Assembly (NCBI RefSeq): GCF_003815875.1
Contig: NZ_CP033924.1
Coordinates: 2,356,001 to 2,420,000 of the forward strand
Direction of reading: 5' to 3'
Length of the DNA: 64,000 bases
Source: Chryseobacterium lactis
GTDB lineage: Bacteria > Bacteroidota > Bacteroidia > Flavobacteriales > Weeksellaceae
The translations under genes and the position numbers were made by a program. Positions 727 through 7,285 of the stretch are shown here, one piece after another. Numbering within the stretch: position 1 is the stretch's first letter; the number at the start of each line of letters is the position of its first letter. The notes below the pieces were generated by a model, which ran no database searches, had not been told where the DNA came from, and saw nothing but the letters and a program-made list of their open reading frames with translations.

Positions 727-814
727 TTCTGAAAAAAGCAGACACAAAGCATAACCCGACCTGATAAAGCCGGTAAAATTTTTTGAACTTTGTGTGAATG
801 TGATTTTTTCAGAA
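727..814 (-). promoter_or_regulatory. Large stem-loop in the 5' leader of the EF-G paralogue
   Basis: Read on the minus strand, TTCTGAAAAAA (804-814) can pair with TTTTTTCAGAA (727-737). Inside that, ACACAAAG (788-795) pairs with CTTTGTGT (742-749). The result is a roughly 88-nt hairpin ending in a U run 48 nt before the start codon. A second, tight hairpin sits just upstream at 822-839 (AACAACA / TGTTGTT). Its loop side, ACAGGTCT, is an exact complement of AGACCTGT in the upstream terminator arm. These structures are seen directly; their regulatory function is inferred. Confidence 0.55.
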
Positions 815-864: not shown

Positions 865-920
865 AAAAAAGACCTATCCGAATAGACAGGTCTTTAGTAT
901 ATTTTGTTGTAAAGATCTAT
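865..920 (-). promoter_or_regulatory. Transcription attenuator: antiterminator and terminator hairpins
   Basis: On the minus strand, AAAGACC and GGTCTTT (865-895), with CTAT/ATAG around a TCGG loop between them and six U residues after, form an intrinsic terminator. A competing hairpin is possible just upstream: ATAGATCTTTA (910-920) pairs with TAAAGA-bulge-TCTAT (882-896), which would consume the 5' arm of the terminator. The antiterminator's left arm begins only 4 nt after the stop codon of the leader ORF at 925-1011. A ribosome reaching that stop would cover the arm, while a ribosome stalled earlier would leave it free. This is the layout of ribosome-mediated attenuation. Confidence 0.6.
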
Positions 921-924
921 AGAA

Positions 925-1011
925 CTATTCAGATAAATATTGAGTGCTGCCAAAGAACACAGCTCTGACAGGGTTACTTAAAGTTATAATATTTATCATT
1001 TTTGTTGACAT
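925..1011 (-). CDS. 28-residue leader peptide upstream of the EF-G paralogue
   Basis: ATG at 1011-1009 and TAG at 927-925 enclose 28 sense codons. The peptide runs through S-N-P-V-R-A-V-F-F-G-S (residues 12-22) and ends TQYLSE. It lies between a Bacteroidota-type promoter (1034-1061) and an antiterminator/terminator pair (865-920), with the EF-G gene 246 nt further on. Its position and length match leader peptides that sense ribosome stalling, as in attenuation-controlled antibiotic-resistance genes. The proline and the R-A-V-F-F stretch could be the stall-prone part, but that is inference and I cannot match it to a named leader family. There are no rare-codon runs or strings of one amino acid, so amino-acid starvation sensing of the trp/his kind is less likely. 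Confidence 0.55.
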   Translation of the reverse strand: MSTKMINIITLSNPVRAVFFGSTQYLSE

Positions 1012-1033
1012 TGTTGATTGTTAATCGGTTGCG

Positions 1034-1061
1034 AAAATATAATAATTTTTTCATTTTCAAA
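1034..1061 (-). promoter_or_regulatory. Promoter of the leader and EF-G paralogue transcript
   Basis: On the minus strand TTTG (1058-1061) is followed after 16 nt by TATATTTT (1034-1041), close to the Bacteroidota TTTG/TAnnTTTG consensus but with a short spacer. Transcription would start near 1027, about 16 nt before the leader ORF. Confidence 0.45.
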
Positions 1062-1275: not shown

Positions 1276-1944
1276 TTGAAAACAGATATCGACATTCAAA
1301 ACCACTGTCATTTTTCCTTTGACCTGTGGCTCACCCTAATCAAATCTCATCCTGAATTTAAAACAAAAAGAGTTGAGCTGTTCTCCTCATTTTTTAATGT
1401 AGATGCACCAATAGAAGTAGTGGCAAGAACCGTAAAATATTATGATGATCTTTGCAATACCATTAATGAAGTAACAGGAGGAAATATTGATACTTTTGAA
1501 ATTTATCTGATGATTCTGGGAGCATTGAATGTAGATGTAAAGCTTTTAAACAAAGAAAAACTCAATGCGTTCTATGAGAAAAGTGAAGAGTTGTTTCTGG
1601 AATATAAACCGGTTGTCATTTTTGAAAATATTCATGATTTTTTTGATGAAATTAAAAATCAGGGAAAAACCATTAATATTTTAAGCAATACAGGATTTAT
1701 CAAGGGAAAAACCATGAGAAAATTTCTGATTCATGAAAATCTGGATCAGTATATTGATTTCCATATTTACTCTGATGAGATCAACTGTTCCAAACCGAAT
1801 CCTCTTATTTTTCAGGAAGTGAAGAATAATCTGAAAGATCAGGATATACCTCTGCACCAGGTTCTGCATATCGGAGATAATCCTTTTGCAGACTATAAAG
1901 GAGCAACAGACTTCGGTTTCAGTGCACATTTACTTAAACACTAA
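1276..1944 (+). CDS. HAD-superfamily hydrolase of the Ter operon
   Basis: 222 residues from a TTG start; no ATG fits the N-terminal motif as well. HAD motifs are in order: motif I FDLWLTL with nucleophile D16 and T20, motif II Ser137 in ILSNTG, motif III Lys173 in CSKPNP, and motif IV GDNPFAD with D201 and D206. The second Asp of the classic DxDxT motif is Trp18, a variant found in several HAD phosphatase subfamilies, so a small-molecule phosphatase or phosphoesterase role is likely but the substrate is unknown. It is the first gene of a co-directional cluster, 7 nt before a phosphoribosyltransferase-like gene. HAD and phosphoribosyltransferase genes are known companions of Ter genes and are thought to make or modify a nucleotide-like metabolite. 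Confidence 0.8.
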   Translation: MKTDIDIQNHCHFSFDLWLTLIKSHPEFKTKRVELFSSFFNVDAPIEVVARTVKYYDDLCNTINEVTGGNIDTFEIYLMILGALNVDVKLLNKEKLNAFYEKSEELFLEYKPVVIFENIHDFFDEIKNQGKTINILSNTGFIKGKTMRKFLIHENLDQYIDFHIYSDEINCSKPNPLIFQEVKNNLKDQDIPLHQVLHIGDNPFADYKGATDFGFSAHLLKH

Positions 1945-1951
1945 TATAAAC

Positions 1952-2776
1952 ATGAATAAAAGATACAGCTTACACCACATTCATTCGGCGGATGAGTTTA
2001 GTTTCTCACCGGCTGAATACAGCTATTTCAAGTATGGCGATAAGTCGTATGCTGAAAAATTTGCAAAAGAATTATTCGAAGGATTTATTTCCGAACATGA
2101 GGAGCTTTTAAATACAGATAAAGAAATTGTGGTGCTTCCAAGTCCTTATATGGCGATTCCCACAGCTTCTAATTTTTTGTGTTTTTTCTTTAAAAAGCAA
2201 CTTGATTTCTATTTGTTTCAGAAAGAAAAAAAGTCTAGTATTTTATCGAAAATCAATAGAAATCATACCTATATCACAGATTATGGGAATCTAAGCTTTG
2301 AAGATCGCAAAAATCTGATTGCCAATGATACTTATTATATCGACAAGGATTTTTTGAGAGGAAAACTTTGTATTTTTATAGACGATATCAAAATAACAGG
2401 AAGTCATGAATACACGGTCAATAAAATTCTTGATGAATATGCTGTGGAGGCCGATTTTATGTTCCTGTATTATGCAGAATTAATGAATTTTAATCTCGAT
2501 CCCAAAATTGAAAACTTCTTCAATTATTATGCGGTGCAAAATGCAGTGCACGTTGCAGAAGTAATGCAGAAACCAAGTTTTGAGTTTAATACAAGAATCG
2601 TAAAATATATTTTAGGCCTGGATTCAAGTAATTTTGATTATCTTACGTCTAATGTAAAAAGAGAGCAGATGGATCTCCTTTTGGAACTGGCCATCAGCAA
2701 CAATTATCATTTAATAAAAGAATATAAAAATAACATCAATACTTTAACACAAACGGAATTATATTATGGCTATTAA
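1952..2776 (+). CDS. Phosphoribosyltransferase-like protein of the Ter operon
   Basis: 274 residues from ATG 1952; an upstream in-frame start would overlap the HAD gene. Residues 143-153 (IDDIKITGSHE) are the PRPP-binding loop typical of type I phosphoribosyltransferases, with the paired acidic residues and T-G. The rest is divergent and I cannot name a base or substrate. The gene overlaps terD by 11 nt, so translation is probably coupled. Related phosphoribosyltransferases accompany terD and telA genes in other bacteria as part of a predicted metabolite-processing arm of the Ter stress system. Confidence 0.75.
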   Translation: MNKRYSLHHIHSADEFSFSPAEYSYFKYGDKSYAEKFAKELFEGFISEHEELLNTDKEIVVLPSPYMAIPTASNFLCFFFKKQLDFYLFQKEKKSSILSKINRNHTYITDYGNLSFEDRKNLIANDTYYIDKDFLRGKLCIFIDDIKITGSHEYTVNKILDEYAVEADFMFLYYAELMNFNLDPKIENFFNYYAVQNAVHVAEVMQKPSFEFNTRIVKYILGLDSSNFDYLTSNVKREQMDLLLELAISNNYHLIKEYKNNINTLTQTELYYGY

Positions 2777-3323
2777 CTTACAAAAAGGACAAAGAGAAAA
2801 CATCAACGCACCTAAATTTACTGTAGGTTTAGGATGGGATATCAATAATACTTCTACAGGAACCGGTTTCGATCTTGACGCTTCTCTATTTTTATTAGGA
2901 GATGATAAAAAATTAGTTTCAGACAATCACTTTATTTTTTATAATAACCTGGAATCTCCGGATAAAGCTGTAATCCACACCGGGGATAACCTTACAGGAG
3001 AAGGATCAGGTGATGATGAGCAGATTAAAATTGATCTTACTAAAATTGATGATGCTGTAAAAGAAATTACAGTGGTAGTAACGATCCACGAAGCAGATTC
3101 CAGAAGACAGAACTTTGGACAGGTAAGAAATTCTTTCATCAGAATTTTTAATACAGATACGAATGAAGAAATCTTAAAGTACGAACTTGACGAAGATTTC
3201 TCAATCGAAACGGCAGTAGAATTCGGAAGAATCTACAACAGAAACGGAGAATGGAAATTTGAAGCAGTAGGGGCAGGACAAAGAGACGGCCTTGACAAAT
3301 TTGTATCAATTTATCAAAAGTAA
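2766..3323 (+). CDS. terD: TerD-family tellurium/stress resistance protein
   Basis: 185 residues, about the usual TerD length (190). It starts MAINLQKGQR and contains GLGWD, FDLDASLFLL and HTGDNLTGEGSGDDE, the acidic stretches that bind calcium in TerD domains, and ends NGEWKFEAVGAGQRDGL, the family C-terminal signature. TerD proteins are cytosolic calcium-binding proteins that act with TerC and TelA in resistance to tellurite and other envelope or DNA stress. The first 10 residues are the same as those of the second TerD at 5546. Its start overlaps the end of the phosphoribosyltransferase gene. Confidence 0.95.
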   Translation: MAINLQKGQRENINAPKFTVGLGWDINNTSTGTGFDLDASLFLLGDDKKLVSDNHFIFYNNLESPDKAVIHTGDNLTGEGSGDDEQIKIDLTKIDDAVKEITVVVTIHEADSRRQNFGQVRNSFIRIFNTDTNEEILKYELDEDFSIETAVEFGRIYNRNGEWKFEAVGAGQRDGLDKFVSIYQK

Positions 3324-3325
3324 TT

Positions 3326-4498
3326 ATGGACAATCAAGAAAATCAACCTATAGATCCGCTTGGATCAATTGAACCTCTTAAAACATTTGAGCCAACTCCA
3401 ATGACTCCACCACCGGGACAGCCTGTGCAAAACTCAGCGCCGGCAGTGCTTGTTGACAGAGAAGGAAATGTAAATCTTACTCAGATACAGACAGAGGAAC
3501 GTCAGAAATATGAAGTGTTGGCGAATTCTATCGATGAAGCGAATCCGGGTTCAATCGTAAATTTCGGAGCTGAGCTTCAGAAAACATTAACCAACCAGAG
3601 TGACAGCTTCTTAGGGAATGTAAGAAGATCCAACTCAGGTGAGGTGGGCGGACTTATCAATGATCTTTTGGTAGAGCTTAACTATGTAGATGTAGAAGAG
3701 CTTAACGGAAATAAAGTAAAAAGTTTCCTGAGTAAATTACCATTCATGAAGAAGGTGATGACTCAGGTAGAAAACTTATTTGCAAAATATGATAAGATCA
3801 TCAATAATATCGAGCAGATCTCGTATAAAGTAAATGCAGGAATCATTACCTCTACCAAAGATAACGCTGTTCTTCAGACTATTTTTGAAAGTAATGTGAA
3901 CTCCATTAAACAGATCGAGGATCTTGTAATTGCAGGAAATATAAGAATGGAAAGAGCAGCAGTTGAGCTTACCCAAATGGAAGCCGCTCCTCAGAATTTC
4001 CAGGATTATCAGATTGCAGACAAAAGAGATTTCATTGCAAGATTAGACCGAAGAATGGCTGATCTTAAAGTGGTACGTGTGATCATGATGCAGTCGCTTC
4101 CACAAATCAGACTGGTACAGAATAACAACGTTTCTATTGCTGAAAAAGCGCAAACGATTCTTACCACAACACTTCCGGTATGGAAAAACCAGCTTTCACT
4201 TGCCGTTGCCATGTACAGACAGCAGCAGAATATTGAGATTCAGCAGAAAGTGTCTGCTACTACAGAAGAAATCTTAAGAAAGAATGCGGAGCGTCTTGGT
4301 CAGAATTCTGTAAATGTAGCAAGAGCCAATGAGCAGACGATCGTATCTGTAGAAACATTAAGAGAAACTACTTCAATGTTGATCAATACGTTGAATGAAG
4401 TGAAACAAATCCAGAAACAAGGTGCTGATAACAGAAGAAAACTGGATCAGGATCTTCAGACATTGGAGCATGAATTAAAAGCAAATGTCAGAGGTTAA
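3326..4498 (+). CDS. telA: TelA-family toxic anion resistance protein
   Basis: 390 residues, 2 nt after terD. A Pro-rich N-terminal tail (residues 1-40) is followed by a long helical, coiled-coil body characteristic of the TelA/YaaN family, with segments such as FLSKLPFMKKV and many Gln- and Glu-rich heptads up to the C-terminus. There is no signal peptide or membrane segment. TelA proteins accompany TerD and TerC and confer tolerance of tellurite and some antimicrobials; the mechanism is not settled. A co-transcribed position between two terD copies supports the call. Confidence 0.93.
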   Translation: MDNQENQPIDPLGSIEPLKTFEPTPMTPPPGQPVQNSAPAVLVDREGNVNLTQIQTEERQKYEVLANSIDEANPGSIVNFGAELQKTLTNQSDSFLGNVRRSNSGEVGGLINDLLVELNYVDVEELNGNKVKSFLSKLPFMKKVMTQVENLFAKYDKIINNIEQISYKVNAGIITSTKDNAVLQTIFESNVNSIKQIEDLVIAGNIRMERAAVELTQMEAAPQNFQDYQIADKRDFIARLDRRMADLKVVRVIMMQSLPQIRLVQNNNVSIAEKAQTILTTTLPVWKNQLSLAVAMYRQQQNIEIQQKVSATTEEILRKNAERLGQNSVNVARANEQTIVSVETLRETTSMLINTLNEVKQIQKQGADNRRKLDQDLQTLEHELKANVRG

Positions 4499-4514
4499 TT
4501 AATAGGGAACTAAG

Positions 4515-5462
4515 GTGGGGGATGATGCAGCAACCATATTGTCGCAGAGCAAAAGAAGATTAACAAGGCTTAAGCTTCTTGCCAATTTTTTTGAACATAT
4601 TGACATAATATCAATTTACATCAAAACAGATATTATCCACAATTTGTTCCAGGAAAATACGGCTCTGGATTACAATAAGCTGGAACTTTTTCACCTTCAG
4701 TATACCGATAGTCTGATAGAGCTTTTAACCAAGATCAAAAGGCAGAAAGAAAATGATATGCTGGCGGTCATCAATGAGATGGGAATCAATACTAAATATA
4801 TTTCCGGGTTTGAAGAAAGGCGTGTAGACAGCTTTGAAACTGACCGGAAAATGTATAGCGGTATATTTTCTCAACATCTGAAATCACTGTATAAAGATCT
4901 TACGGAAGAGATTTTTACTGTCAATTGGGATAATGTCCTGTATTTTCATAAAAAATATGCGCAGGAATTTTACAGAACGGAAGCAGATGAGTCACTATTG
5001 AAAACCGGAGCATTTCCGGCCTATCAGTATAAAGACTATTCCATTGAAAGAAAACTGTTGGGAAGGCTTAATATACAAGGATTTAAAGTCCGCTTTGTTT
5101 GTGGTTACCGGATTGGAACCCATGAGTATGAGCTTTTTAAGATCTTTCAGTCTGATGATCATTTCATTTTTAGTGTGGATGATAAAAAGCTGTATCTTTT
5201 TGATAAGGAGTTGGATAAATTGGATATCTCTGAAAATCAATCTAATCAGTCTTCCATTATCGATCAGCTAAAACAGAAAAATGAACAGCTGGAAAGCAGT
5301 ATGAATGAAAGAAAACGTACTTTACCCATAGAAGTGGAAGGCGTTTTAAAAGACTATCTCAGAAACCTTGAGAATATAGACATTATGAGCAAAATATTTG
5401 ATTTTGATGAAGAAACAAATATTTTGAAAGCAATGCTTAATTTGAATTTGAATAATAACTAG
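4515..5462 (+). CDS. Unknown protein encoded inside the Ter operon
   Basis: 315 residues from a GTG start 16 nt after telA; no better ATG lies upstream. I do not recognise a family. It is predicted soluble, without signal or membrane segments. The N-terminal 120 residues are helical and rich in Leu, Ile and Lys, a central part (about 165-235) contains beta-like segments (FKVRFVCGYRIGTHEYELF and FIFSVDDKKLYLFDKEL), and residues about 250-275 form a short coiled coil. Its co-directional place between telA and the second terD implies a role in the same stress system, possibly bridging TelA and TerD, but this is inference. Confidence 0.8.
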   Translation: MGDDAATILSQSKRRLTRLKLLANFFEHIDIISIYIKTDIIHNLFQENTALDYNKLELFHLQYTDSLIELLTKIKRQKENDMLAVINEMGINTKYISGFEERRVDSFETDRKMYSGIFSQHLKSLYKDLTEEIFTVNWDNVLYFHKKYAQEFYRTEADESLLKTGAFPAYQYKDYSIERKLLGRLNIQGFKVRFVCGYRIGTHEYELFKIFQSDDHFIFSVDDKKLYLFDKELDKLDISENQSNQSSIIDQLKQKNEQLESSMNERKRTLPIEVEGVLKDYLRNLENIDIMSKIFDFDEETNILKAMLNLNLNNN

Positions 5463-5545
5463 AACGAAATTTGAAAACGGAAAGACTAATCTGCATTAGA
5501 AATTTGGCTTTTCACAAAAAATAAATAACAACAAAACATAAAAAA

Positions 5546-6154
5546 ATGGCTATCAACTTACAAAAAGGTCAAAGAATTAACCTTAAAAAAGAAAACGGAG
5601 CTGAGCTTTCCCAGGCTTGTGTAGGAATCAACTGGGGAGCAATTGAAAAAAAAGGATTTTTCGGAACTAAAAAAGAAGCAGTAGACTTGGATGGAAGCTG
5701 TATTTTATATGATTCAAACAAAAATGTAACGGAAGTAATCTATTTCGGTAATTTAAAATCCAAAAACGGATCAGTTAAACATAGCGGAGACGACCTTACG
5801 GGAGATGTAGACGGAGATGACGGATTGGATAACGAGGTAATCACTGTAGATTTCAGCAATCTGGAACCTAATGTAGAACACGTTGCAATGGTTCTGAACA
5901 GTTACAGAGGCCAGGATTTCGGAACAATTCCTTTCGCTTCTATCAGAATCTATGAAGGAAGCCCTACCAACGTCAGAGAAGTATTTGCAAAATATGACAT
6001 TGCCAATGACGCTTCTTTCAGTGGTCATGTGGCCATGGTTATGGGAGTTTTCTATAAGAGAAACGGAGAATGGAAATTCAACGCTATCGGAGATCCTACA
6101 TCAGACAGAAAACTGGAGCAAACGATCCAGACTGTACAGATGAATTATTTGTAA
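5546..6154 (+). CDS. Second TerD-family protein (TerZ-like)
   Basis: 202 residues. It opens MAINLQKGQRINLKKENG and has VGINWGA, VDLDGSCILYD, HSGDDLTGDVDGDDGLDNE and YKRNGEWKFNAIGDPT, the usual TerD/TerZ landmarks including the acidic calcium-binding loops. An insertion after residue 30 (AIEKKGFFGTKKEAV) distinguishes it from the first TerD at 2766 and resembles TerZ-type members. It lies 83 nt downstream of the unknown gene and 90 nt before terC, and is probably part of the same operon. TerD-family proteins often occur as several paralogues that act together. Confidence 0.95.
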   Translation: MAINLQKGQRINLKKENGAELSQACVGINWGAIEKKGFFGTKKEAVDLDGSCILYDSNKNVTEVIYFGNLKSKNGSVKHSGDDLTGDVDGDDGLDNEVITVDFSNLEPNVEHVAMVLNSYRGQDFGTIPFASIRIYEGSPTNVREVFAKYDIANDASFSGHVAMVMGVFYKRNGEWKFNAIGDPTSDRKLEQTIQTVQMNYL

Positions 6155-6244
6155 TCAATTATCAATCAAAAGATAAAATAAAACAGCAATATTTGTACCT
6201 TGTGCATCTATTGCTTTTATCATATATAATAACACATTAATCAA

Positions 6245-7285
6245 GTGGAAAAACATCAAAGTATTTTAGAGCTGCACCCGGGTCTGGTGTGGGGATTTGC
6301 GATAACGGTTGTTATCATGCTGCTCCTTGACTTAGGGGTATTCAACAAAAAAAGTCACGAAGTATCGTCTAAAGAGGCTACCATCTGGACTATCGTATGG
6401 ATTTCACTATCCATGGTCTTTTCAGGCGTAGTTTATTGGGCATTCAATACAGACGGAACACCAGAGAGCCATGCGTTGGCGGTGGAGAAATTTACACAAT
6501 ATCAGGCAGCCTACTGGATTGAGAAAGCACTTTCGGTCGATAACTTATTCGTGTTTATCCTTGTCTTTGGATTCTTTAAAGTTCCGAAATTTCTTCACCA
6601 TAAAGTTCTTTTCTGGGGGATTATCGGAGCCTTGATTTTCAGAGCTATATTTATTTTCGCCGGAGTAGGGCTTATCAACCTTACCTATCTTCCTGAAATG
6701 CATATTTTCGGAGAAGCCGTAAAGATTAATATTGTGATGACTCTGTTCGGATTATTCCTGGTATATGCGGGAATCAAATCATGGGGTGACGGTGGTGATG
6801 ACGATGATGAAGATTATAGCAATACTGCCGGAGCAAAGCTGATCAAGAGCTTCTGGAAAGTTTCCGATAATTACGATGGTGATAAGTTCTTCACAATCCA
6901 GAATGGGATTAAGATGGCAACCCCTCTTTTAGTGGTGGTTGGAGTAATTGAGTTTACTGACGTTCTTTTTGCGGTAGATTCTATTCCTGCAATCTTTGCG
7001 ATTTCTGATGACCCATTCATCCTTTATACATCCAATATCTTCGCTATTTTAGGTCTTAGATCTTTATATTTTCTATTGGCGAATTTTATTCACATGTTCA
7101 GCAAATTACCATACGGCCTGGCGATTATCCTTTCGTTTATCGGGGTTAAAATGCTTATTGCACCGTGGTATCACATCTCTTCTCCGGTTTCACTTGGAAT
7201 TGTAGGTGGAGTATTGGTTATTTCCGTTATTCTATCCATTATGTTCCCTGATAAGGAAGATGAAAAGGAAAAATTAGAAGAATAA
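6245..7285 (+). CDS. terC: TerC-family integral membrane protein
   Basis: 346 residues from a GTG start. Eight or nine hydrophobic helices are visible, with the TerC core WIEKALSVDNLFVFILVFGFF and the second acidic motif VVGVIEFTDVLFAVDSIPAIFAI. An acidic cytoplasmic loop (GDGGDDDDEDY, around residue 182) sits in the middle, as in Alx/TerC proteins. Family members are thought to move metal ions such as Mn or to partner TerD at the membrane. It is the last gene of the operon and is followed by a strong terminator at 7311. Confidence 0.95.
   Translation: MEKHQSILELHPGLVWGFAITVVIMLLLDLGVFNKKSHEVSSKEATIWTIVWISLSMVFSGVVYWAFNTDGTPESHALAVEKFTQYQAAYWIEKALSVDNLFVFILVFGFFKVPKFLHHKVLFWGIIGALIFRAIFIFAGVGLINLTYLPEMHIFGEAVKINIVMTLFGLFLVYAGIKSWGDGGDDDDEDYSNTAGAKLIKSFWKVSDNYDGDKFFTIQNGIKMATPLLVVVGVIEFTDVLFAVDSIPAIFAISDDPFILYTSNIFAILGLRSLYFLLANFIHMFSKLPYGLAIILSFIGVKMLIAPWYHISSPVSLGIVGGVLVISVILSIMFPDKEDEKEKLEE

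Follow-up and report, generated by a model that had tools for sequence, protein, structure and literature searches.

A conserved leader of attenuator architecture upstream of a second elongation factor G gene in Chryseobacterium

Many bacteria possess a second elongation factor G (EF-G) of unclear use. A locus on the minus strand of the Chryseobacterium lactis sequence analysed here (a stretch of 64,000 nt, hereafter the window) raises the question of how such a gene may be controlled, as a full-length EF-G paralogue lies there behind a leader ORF of 28 codons and an intrinsic terminator with a competing antiterminator. An earlier note had read this region as a promoter, a 28-codon ORF, mutually exclusive hairpins and a U-tract terminator ahead of an EF-G paralogue; that layout was confirmed, the promoter as a candidate element, and additional pairing segments were recognized. 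The features are as follows.

1061-1032, minus strand: candidate promoter-like element, TTTG at 1061-1058, 18 nt, then TATTTTCG at 1039-1032
1011-925, minus strand: leader ORF, 28 codons plus TAG, MSTKMINIITLSNPVRAVFFGSTQYLSE (ORF list, comparison of relatives)
997-988, minus strand: 5' arm of the protector helix, codons 5-8 (folding, comparison)
971-963, minus strand: segment A of the in-ORF hairpin, codons 14-17 (folding, covariation)
955-945, minus strand: segment B, codons 19-23, partner of either A or C (folding, covariation)
941-932, minus strand: 3' arm of the protector helix, codons 24-27, overlapping the outer antiterminator arm (folding, comparison)
935-925, minus strand: outer antiterminator arm, stop codon included (masked folding, partner swaps)
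920-910, minus strand: inner antiterminator arm, 4 nt 3' of the stop codon (folding, covariation)
896-886 and 885-875, minus strand: antiterminator partners within the terminator region (folding)
895-868, minus strand: intrinsic terminator hairpin (folding against shuffles, covariation)
870-865, minus strand: terminator U-tract (sequence)
865-859, minus strand: segment C, directly past the terminator, pairing with B in readthrough RNA (covariation)
679-1, minus strand: 5' part of the EF-G paralogue gene, ATG at 679, the remainder lying outside the window

The leader, its gene and their distribution

The gene encodes 688 amino acids from the ATG at 679 (genome position G000:C1:2354616-2356679). 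Residues 5-225 of its product are 50% identical to the housekeeping EF-G of the rpsL-rpsG-fusA cluster, the GTPase motifs and EF-G domains are intact, and the score against the EF-G model TIGR00484 (832.8 bits) lies above the cut-off of 659.4. Two related assignments were rejected, namely Bacteroides EF-G2 (NF058620, 416.6 bits against a cut-off of 1000) and tetracycline ribosomal protection protein (NF012153, 346.7 bits against 775). The leader region matched no Rfam family at gathering score. A sequence resembling the -7 element of flavobacterial promoters, for which TAnnTTTG is reported as the consensus (PMC9723704), is present upstream of 69 of 70 related leaders when one mismatch in TTTG is allowed, and 13 of these 69 carry it exactly. 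Elsewhere in the vicinity, a further terminator-like stem occurs between the attenuator and the gene (756-773, minus strand), and a divergent gene cluster on the plus strand (1276-7285) starts with a HAD-family hydrolase, followed by proteins that we take to resemble TerD- and TerC-type tellurium resistance proteins.

Within the genus Chryseobacterium, as defined by the named records among 71 loci, the paralogue was found at 78% identity or more in at least 93 of 173 genomes among the matches listed; since 80 of the 173 lack it among those matches, it appears to be dispensable. The leader is located upstream on the same strand for 93 of 93 genus paralogues among the matches listed. This constancy argues that the element is more than a chance arrangement: it is real, and a chance origin is very unlikely. 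The interval between the end of the RNA-model match and the start of the protein match is 67-395 nt, the longest values including genes whose match starts near residue 67, and the leader stop precedes the gene start codon by 132-406 nt. An RNA model of the leader matched 101 of 171 genus genomes, 94 strongly (126-144 bits) and 7 only weakly (36-41 bits), the strong matches being expected from a model built mostly on leaders of that genus. All strong genus matches lie at the EF-G paralogue, with the exception of one genome (G159, 75% complete) having a leader but no listed paralogue; this genome has two protein matches (best E 3.6e-200) and may contain a broken copy.

Beyond the genus the element is scarce. 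The RNA model matched 6 of 345 genomes in the phylum, of which three were strong and all from Chryseobacterium, while the three weak ones were rejected as leaders, being plain terminators. Among 395 genomes of the order, a DNA pattern fitting one of two leader types (not that of the window) was found in 6, all from the genus; searched as an exact pattern, the peptide was found in 7 of 59 relatives, again all Chryseobacterium. With a threshold of E 1e-235, the paralogue is present outside the genus in 3 of 397 Flavobacteriaceae genomes, including that on which the search was centred (L102); at E 1e-225, a sample of 58 genomes from the same family as the window gave it once, in the genome from which the window comes. 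Five loci of other Flavobacteriales do place a diverged leader before the paralogue: L095, L102 (Psychroserpens) and L105 (Dokdonia), from the set of 71, and L123 and L124, from the Flavobacteriaceae search. Four of the 71 loci (L110-L113), without leader and in records named as other phyla, were dropped before counting. All 86 plasmid records with an EF-G showed less than 60% identity, and the viral contigs searched contained no match.

Some loci bear signs of change behind the leader. The paralogue appears broken, by a frameshift at L090, L092, L098 and L109 and by one internal stop in G024, G107 and G096, in each case with the leader intact, reflecting either decay or sequencing error. Longer spacers between attenuator and gene (L085, L086, L091, L094, L096, L097 and L104) share, by eye, a similar repeat-like stretch, for example GCGACAAAGTCGCTGATGAAG or its complement, which might be a dispersed repeat that entered downstream of the attenuator.

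Selection on the leader peptide and on RNA pairing

The leader ORF is under coding selection, with pN/pS of 0.30-0.32 among 45 distinct genus ORFs. Codons 9-13 take part in none of the proposed pairings and have pS of 0.57, pN of 0.07 and pN/pS of 0.12 in the same set, and a sample of the EF-G gene itself (up to 24 genes, 60 random codons) gave pS of 0.52 and pN of 0.06. As the silent rate in these codons is like that of the EF-G gene, yet the amino acids are kept, selection here acts on the peptide. The reverse is true of codons 25-28, which are invariant among the 45 genus ORFs but specify different residues in distant relatives, so that RNA is what is conserved. At codons 23-24 the encoded residues change freely (pN 0.22). 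From these substitution patterns the peptide seems important up to about codon 22, which would fit a ribosomal pause before that point. R16, V18 and G21 are common to nine aligned peptide variants, each of which has Ala or Thr at residue 17; the conserved core can be written I-I-x-L-x-x-[PA]-[IV]-R-[AT]-V. Conservation of the peptide in relatives, proposed as a check in the earlier note, was thus found, together with selection on it as a peptide.

That note had also remarked on the absence of a repeated amino acid, and indeed no run of one amino acid was found. This bears on whether the leader might be an attenuator responding to amino-acid starvation. Its layout is the same as in biosynthetic attenuators, and clues for leader-peptide attenuation have been reported upstream of amino-acid operons in F. 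psychrophilum (PMC9723704); however, with no such run, and a translation factor as the regulated gene, we regard starvation as a very improbable signal.

Helices of the leader were evaluated by folding against shuffled sequences and in a main alignment of 49 of 70 leaders (a second comprised 32 of 70), near-copies having been left out by hand. The terminator hairpin (895-868) is strongly supported in folding (z = -5.9; 0 of 200 shuffles as good); 98.1% of its cells are paired in the 49 aligned leaders and its covariation score exceeds all 500 shuffles, although its number of pairs with two-sided change was reached by 72 of 500. A simple terminator scan did not report the hairpin, probably since stem pairing takes up three of its six T. 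The antiterminator (935-875) has z = -4.3, again with 0 of 200 shuffles as good. In its inner part 74.1% of cells are paired in the 49 leaders, one pair is never formed, and one pair exchanges between C-G (21), U-A (21) and U-G (7).

The left arm of the antiterminator had been placed in the earlier note 4 nt after the stop codon, which holds for the inner arm (920-910) but misses an outer arm of 11 pairs (935-925) spanning the last codons and the stop codon itself. In masked folding this outer arm pairs with the terminator loop and 3' arm (885-875). Its sequences differ between lineages while pairing is kept: in a partner-swap analysis of 67 distinct leaders and seven representatives, own partners of the seven averaged -10.2 kcal/mol against -6.2 when swapped, 4 of 5000 random partner assignments were as good as the true one, and at least 2 nt of the stop codon are paired in 62 of the 67. 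For individual rows the signal is weaker, a single own partner beating all swapped ones in only three of seven, and shuffled outer arms being equally good in 46 of 500 cases for L095 and 35 of 500 for L123. Aligned pair counts for this helix are barely above shuffles; the arm hardly varies within the genus and the aligner shifts distant rows.

Two helices within the ORF were additional to those described earlier. A possible protector helix (997-988 with 941-932) has z of -2.15, with 5 of 200 shuffles as good; 89.8% of its cells are paired in the leader alignment, and five two-sided pairs compare with a shuffle mean of 0.7 but with 2-4 in slid controls. At L089 codon 8 encodes Thr in place of Ile, and a silent substitution in codon 24 preserves the protector pair. 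The in-ORF hairpin (971-963 with 955-947) has z of -1.65, with 13 of 200 shuffles as good. Its helix between segments A and B is paired in 96.8% of cells, with A-U in 27 and G-C in 22 of the 49 leaders at the same base of B; one pair is broken in 10 of 49 rows, and further pair types are not above shuffles.

The best paired helix joins B to segment C, directly past the terminator (865-859 with 951-945), with 99.4% of cells paired in the 49 aligned leaders, a score above all 500 shuffles, and its first five pairs forming in 70 of 70 leaders. One of its pairs is U-A in 27 leaders and C-G in 22, five pair types occur at another, and one neighbouring pair shows four further types in deep lineages; the number of two-sided pairs was reached by 82 of 500 shuffles. 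One base in each of A, B and C changes together, as G, C, G or A, U, A, with B and C agreeing in 68 of 68 leaders and A and B in 49 of 49 aligned rows. On a tree of 65 rows, from which the four frameshifted loci and the overly short L082 were omitted (L085 being only 30% filled), two changes are enough to explain this switch, of which one falls on well supported branches. Together with the antiterminator, the B-C helix forms one long hairpin (z -6.85). Since segment C is made only after readthrough, it cannot influence the decision to terminate; presumably its role is to stabilize the mRNA in the ON fold or to protect the 5' end of that mRNA. A covarying strand beyond the terminator is a feature that the classical attenuator model does not need.

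Helices of this leader therefore covary, as had been suggested for examination, to different degrees. These findings weigh on the alternative of an ordinary terminator with a chance ORF before it. The hairpin is a strong stand-alone terminator; however, the neighbouring upstream gene is divergent, so that there is no gene before it for the terminator to serve, and the conservation, selection and covariation of the leader, with an ORF conserved as a peptide, leave this explanation scarcely credible.

Computed switching with ribosome position

The consequence of ribosome position was computed by folding the window leader up to the U-tract with a ribosome footprint masked, and by comparison of 62 distinct genus leaders. 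In the untranslated window leader the terminator has a probability of 0.82 and the antiterminator 0.14, an OFF outcome that results from pairing between the two ends of the ORF. With codon 1, 5, 8, 11 or 14 in the P site the antiterminator rises to 0.65-0.82; with codons 16 and 18 it is 0.21-0.27 and the window is mostly OFF, as the protector can reform behind the footprint; with codon 20 it reaches 0.96, and from codon 22 onward the terminator prevails at 0.96. Among the 62 leaders, the antiterminator wins in 9 when untranslated, in 29-35 with the footprint at codons 1-14 or 20, in 11-14 with the footprint alone at codons 16-18, and in 0-1 from codon 22. When the 5' side of the ribosome is held open, 30-40 of the 62 are ON at codons 5-20. 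The direction of switching is consistent in these models, but equilibrium energies do not switch every leader, and about half of the 62 follow. The model is weakest at the stall site that it favours, R16-V18.

We propose the following sequence of events. In untranslated RNA the protector, the in-ORF hairpin and the terminator would form, leaving the gene OFF. During normal translation the ribosome would reach the stop codon and cover the antiterminator arm that contains it, so that the terminator would again form. A ribosome held at about codons 1-20, probably with the help of the conserved peptide in pausing near R16-V18, would instead leave the ORF end and stop codon free to pair with the 5' arm, loop and 3' arm of the terminator, turning the gene ON. 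Once the terminator has been read through, pairing of C with B would extend the antiterminator to a single long hairpin and presumably lock the mRNA in its ON fold. The EF-G made under such a block of translocation may be one on which inhibitors of the housekeeping enzyme, most likely those of fusidane type, have less effect.

That the element is a leader-peptide transcription attenuator, sensing a ribosome held in the first two thirds of the 28-codon ORF and controlling the second EF-G, we consider likely. Conservation, coding selection, covariation and co-occurrence with the gene are observed, and both folds are computed; the promoter, the events in the cell and the stall site are postulated to complete the scheme. 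The earlier suggestion that ribosome position sets readthrough into the paralogue is well supported by the anatomy of the leader, and less uniformly by folding, in which many related leaders stay OFF.

Attenuators of the trp type comprise a leader ORF, alternative pairings that include a protector, and a terminator, with the position of the ribosome deciding between outcomes. The structural elements have counterparts here, and a like role of the ribosome is predicted. The EF-G leader differs in having no repeated control codon, in enclosing the stop codon within the antiterminator, in the conservation of its peptide residues, and in a post-terminator strand that pairs back into the ORF. A functional parallel is the fusB leader of the Staphylococcus plasmid pUB101, in which leader translation stalled by fusidic acid is reported to switch on a resistance factor acting at EF-G (PMC12493156, PMC12190993). 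That system combines translational attenuation with target protection by an EF-G-binding protein, in contrast to the transcription termination and second EF-G envisaged here, and no sequence relation is claimed. Translational attenuation of the fusB type was rejected for the present leader, as the conserved rival structures are a terminator and an antiterminator and the leader stop lies well upstream of the start codon (132-406 nt, as above).

Candidate signals and relation to known systems

What would hold the ribosome is addressed in part by the product itself. We compared 63 paralogues longer than 600 amino acids with one housekeeping EF-G, using S. aureus numbering by alignment. Position 461 is Thr in 58 of 58 genus paralogues and Arg in four and Thr in one of the five from outside the genus; the housekeeping EF-G has Ile at this site, and four EF-Gs whose records carry names of other phyla have Leu or Phe. 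Each of the 58 genus paralogues has Lys at position 464, where the housekeeping protein has Arg; position 436 is Ser against Thr, and F88, P406 and H457 are kept in all 58. In S. aureus EF-G, L461K is described as the most common fusidic acid resistance mutation, conferring high-level resistance, and L461S also occurs (PMC12493156). The residues at 461 may reflect other divergence. Sites relevant to argyrin are little informative, as the housekeeping EF-G differs there too.

The altered hot spot makes the proposal of a signal more specific. Taken together with the fusB leader, with the P. aeruginosa pair EF-G1A/EF-G1B (84% identical, one member reported not to be inhibited by fusidic acid; PMC3832671) and with fusidic acid disk values of 12, 14, 20 and 15 reported for four Elizabethkingia anophelis isolates (PMC10973501), which suggest that this group may not simply exclude the drug, it favours an EF-G inhibitor as the most plausible single signal, tentatively held, with a general stall sensor nearly as plausible. 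Both an inhibitor as signal and insensitivity of the paralogue to it are accordingly put forward with reserve. In its fullest form, the proposal is of a self-sensing target replacement, whereby a housekeeping EF-G jammed by a fusidane or other natural inhibitor would halt the ribosome in mid-ORF and permit readthrough into an EF-G with a resistant-type drug pocket, the second leader found outside the genus, ending R-E-R, adding a second drug class; this is possible, though we would not call it probable.

Also possible, and no less open to doubt, is a general monitor of elongation, in which any slowing on the leader (by several classes of antibiotic, low charged tRNA or cold) would lead to readthrough, the paralogue then adding EF-G activity without being insensitive to an inhibitor. 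The window leader is computed to be ON at most tested codons from 1 to 20 rather than at one site, and the toiL uORF of E. coli is reported to answer to several antibiotic classes (PMC12121999). On the other hand, codons 9-13 are selected as amino acids with no pairing to maintain, which a mere timing ORF would not need, and the fusidic acid hot spot is changed in 63 of 63 paralogues.

A third alternative is a drug-dependent arrest peptide for an antibiotic of the peptidyl-transferase centre or tunnel (a phenicol or oxazolidinone, or a macrolide), with the paralogue helping stalled ribosomes. Ala, Ser and Thr are the residues associated with phenicol and oxazolidinone stalling. Ala or Thr follows R16 in nine of nine aligned variants, and these drugs are reported to stall ribosomes with certain residues at a fixed position of the chain (PMC8987054); in addition, a second ORF precedes the gene in four relatives outside the genus, ending R-E-R-stop in three. 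Yet with codon 18 in the P site only 14 of 62 leaders are ON by footprint, or 34 of 62 with the 5' side held, and we consider arrest of this kind unlikely.

The second short ORF, with a terminator-like hairpin of its own after it, is found in L102, L105 and L124 and in changed form in L123. It sits about 90-155 nt before the paralogue start, between the first attenuator and the gene, and GGGAGAG is its likely antiterminator arm, the pairing having been drawn by eye. A strict pattern for it matched 2 of 397 Flavobacteriaceae genomes, both at the paralogue gene. This tandem leader looks like a separate sensor.

Among known systems, the second EF-G of Bacteroides (fusA2, EF-G2) is reported to be conditionally used under an activator, BT4338, that acts at its promoter (PMC6989115); the present paralogue resembles it as a second EF-G of the same phylum, and differs in its proposed mode of control and in protein subfamily (417 against 1000 bits). 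For the P. aeruginosa pair, the abstract names no leader control (PMC3832671), unlike what is proposed for the Chryseobacterium paralogue. The toiL uORF shares the sensing of translation stress by ribosome stalling, and differs in acting through translation and Rho and in its client, a toxin-antitoxin transcript (PMC12121999). Attenuators have been reported near rpsL and fusA of the ribosomal operon (PMC2965389), which is another gene than the paralogue. Titles and abstract openings of the open-access literature yielded, among the matches listed, no leader peptide of an EF-G paralogue, and leader-peptide attenuation in Flavobacteriia was found there only before amino-acid operons (PMC9723704). 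As an attenuator the element thus belongs to a known kind and adds new features to it, and its client gene is new as far as these searches show.

These observations tie one second EF-G to a conserved, putative sensor of ribosome stalling in Flavobacteriia. They also offer a leader in which constraint at the level of the peptide and constraint at the level of RNA can be separated codon by codon. If an inhibitor of EF-G is the signal, the paralogue would be a chromosomal spare, switched on by the failure of EF-G; and if it does replace the inhibited target, its synthesis would be triggered when the step it carries out itself fails.
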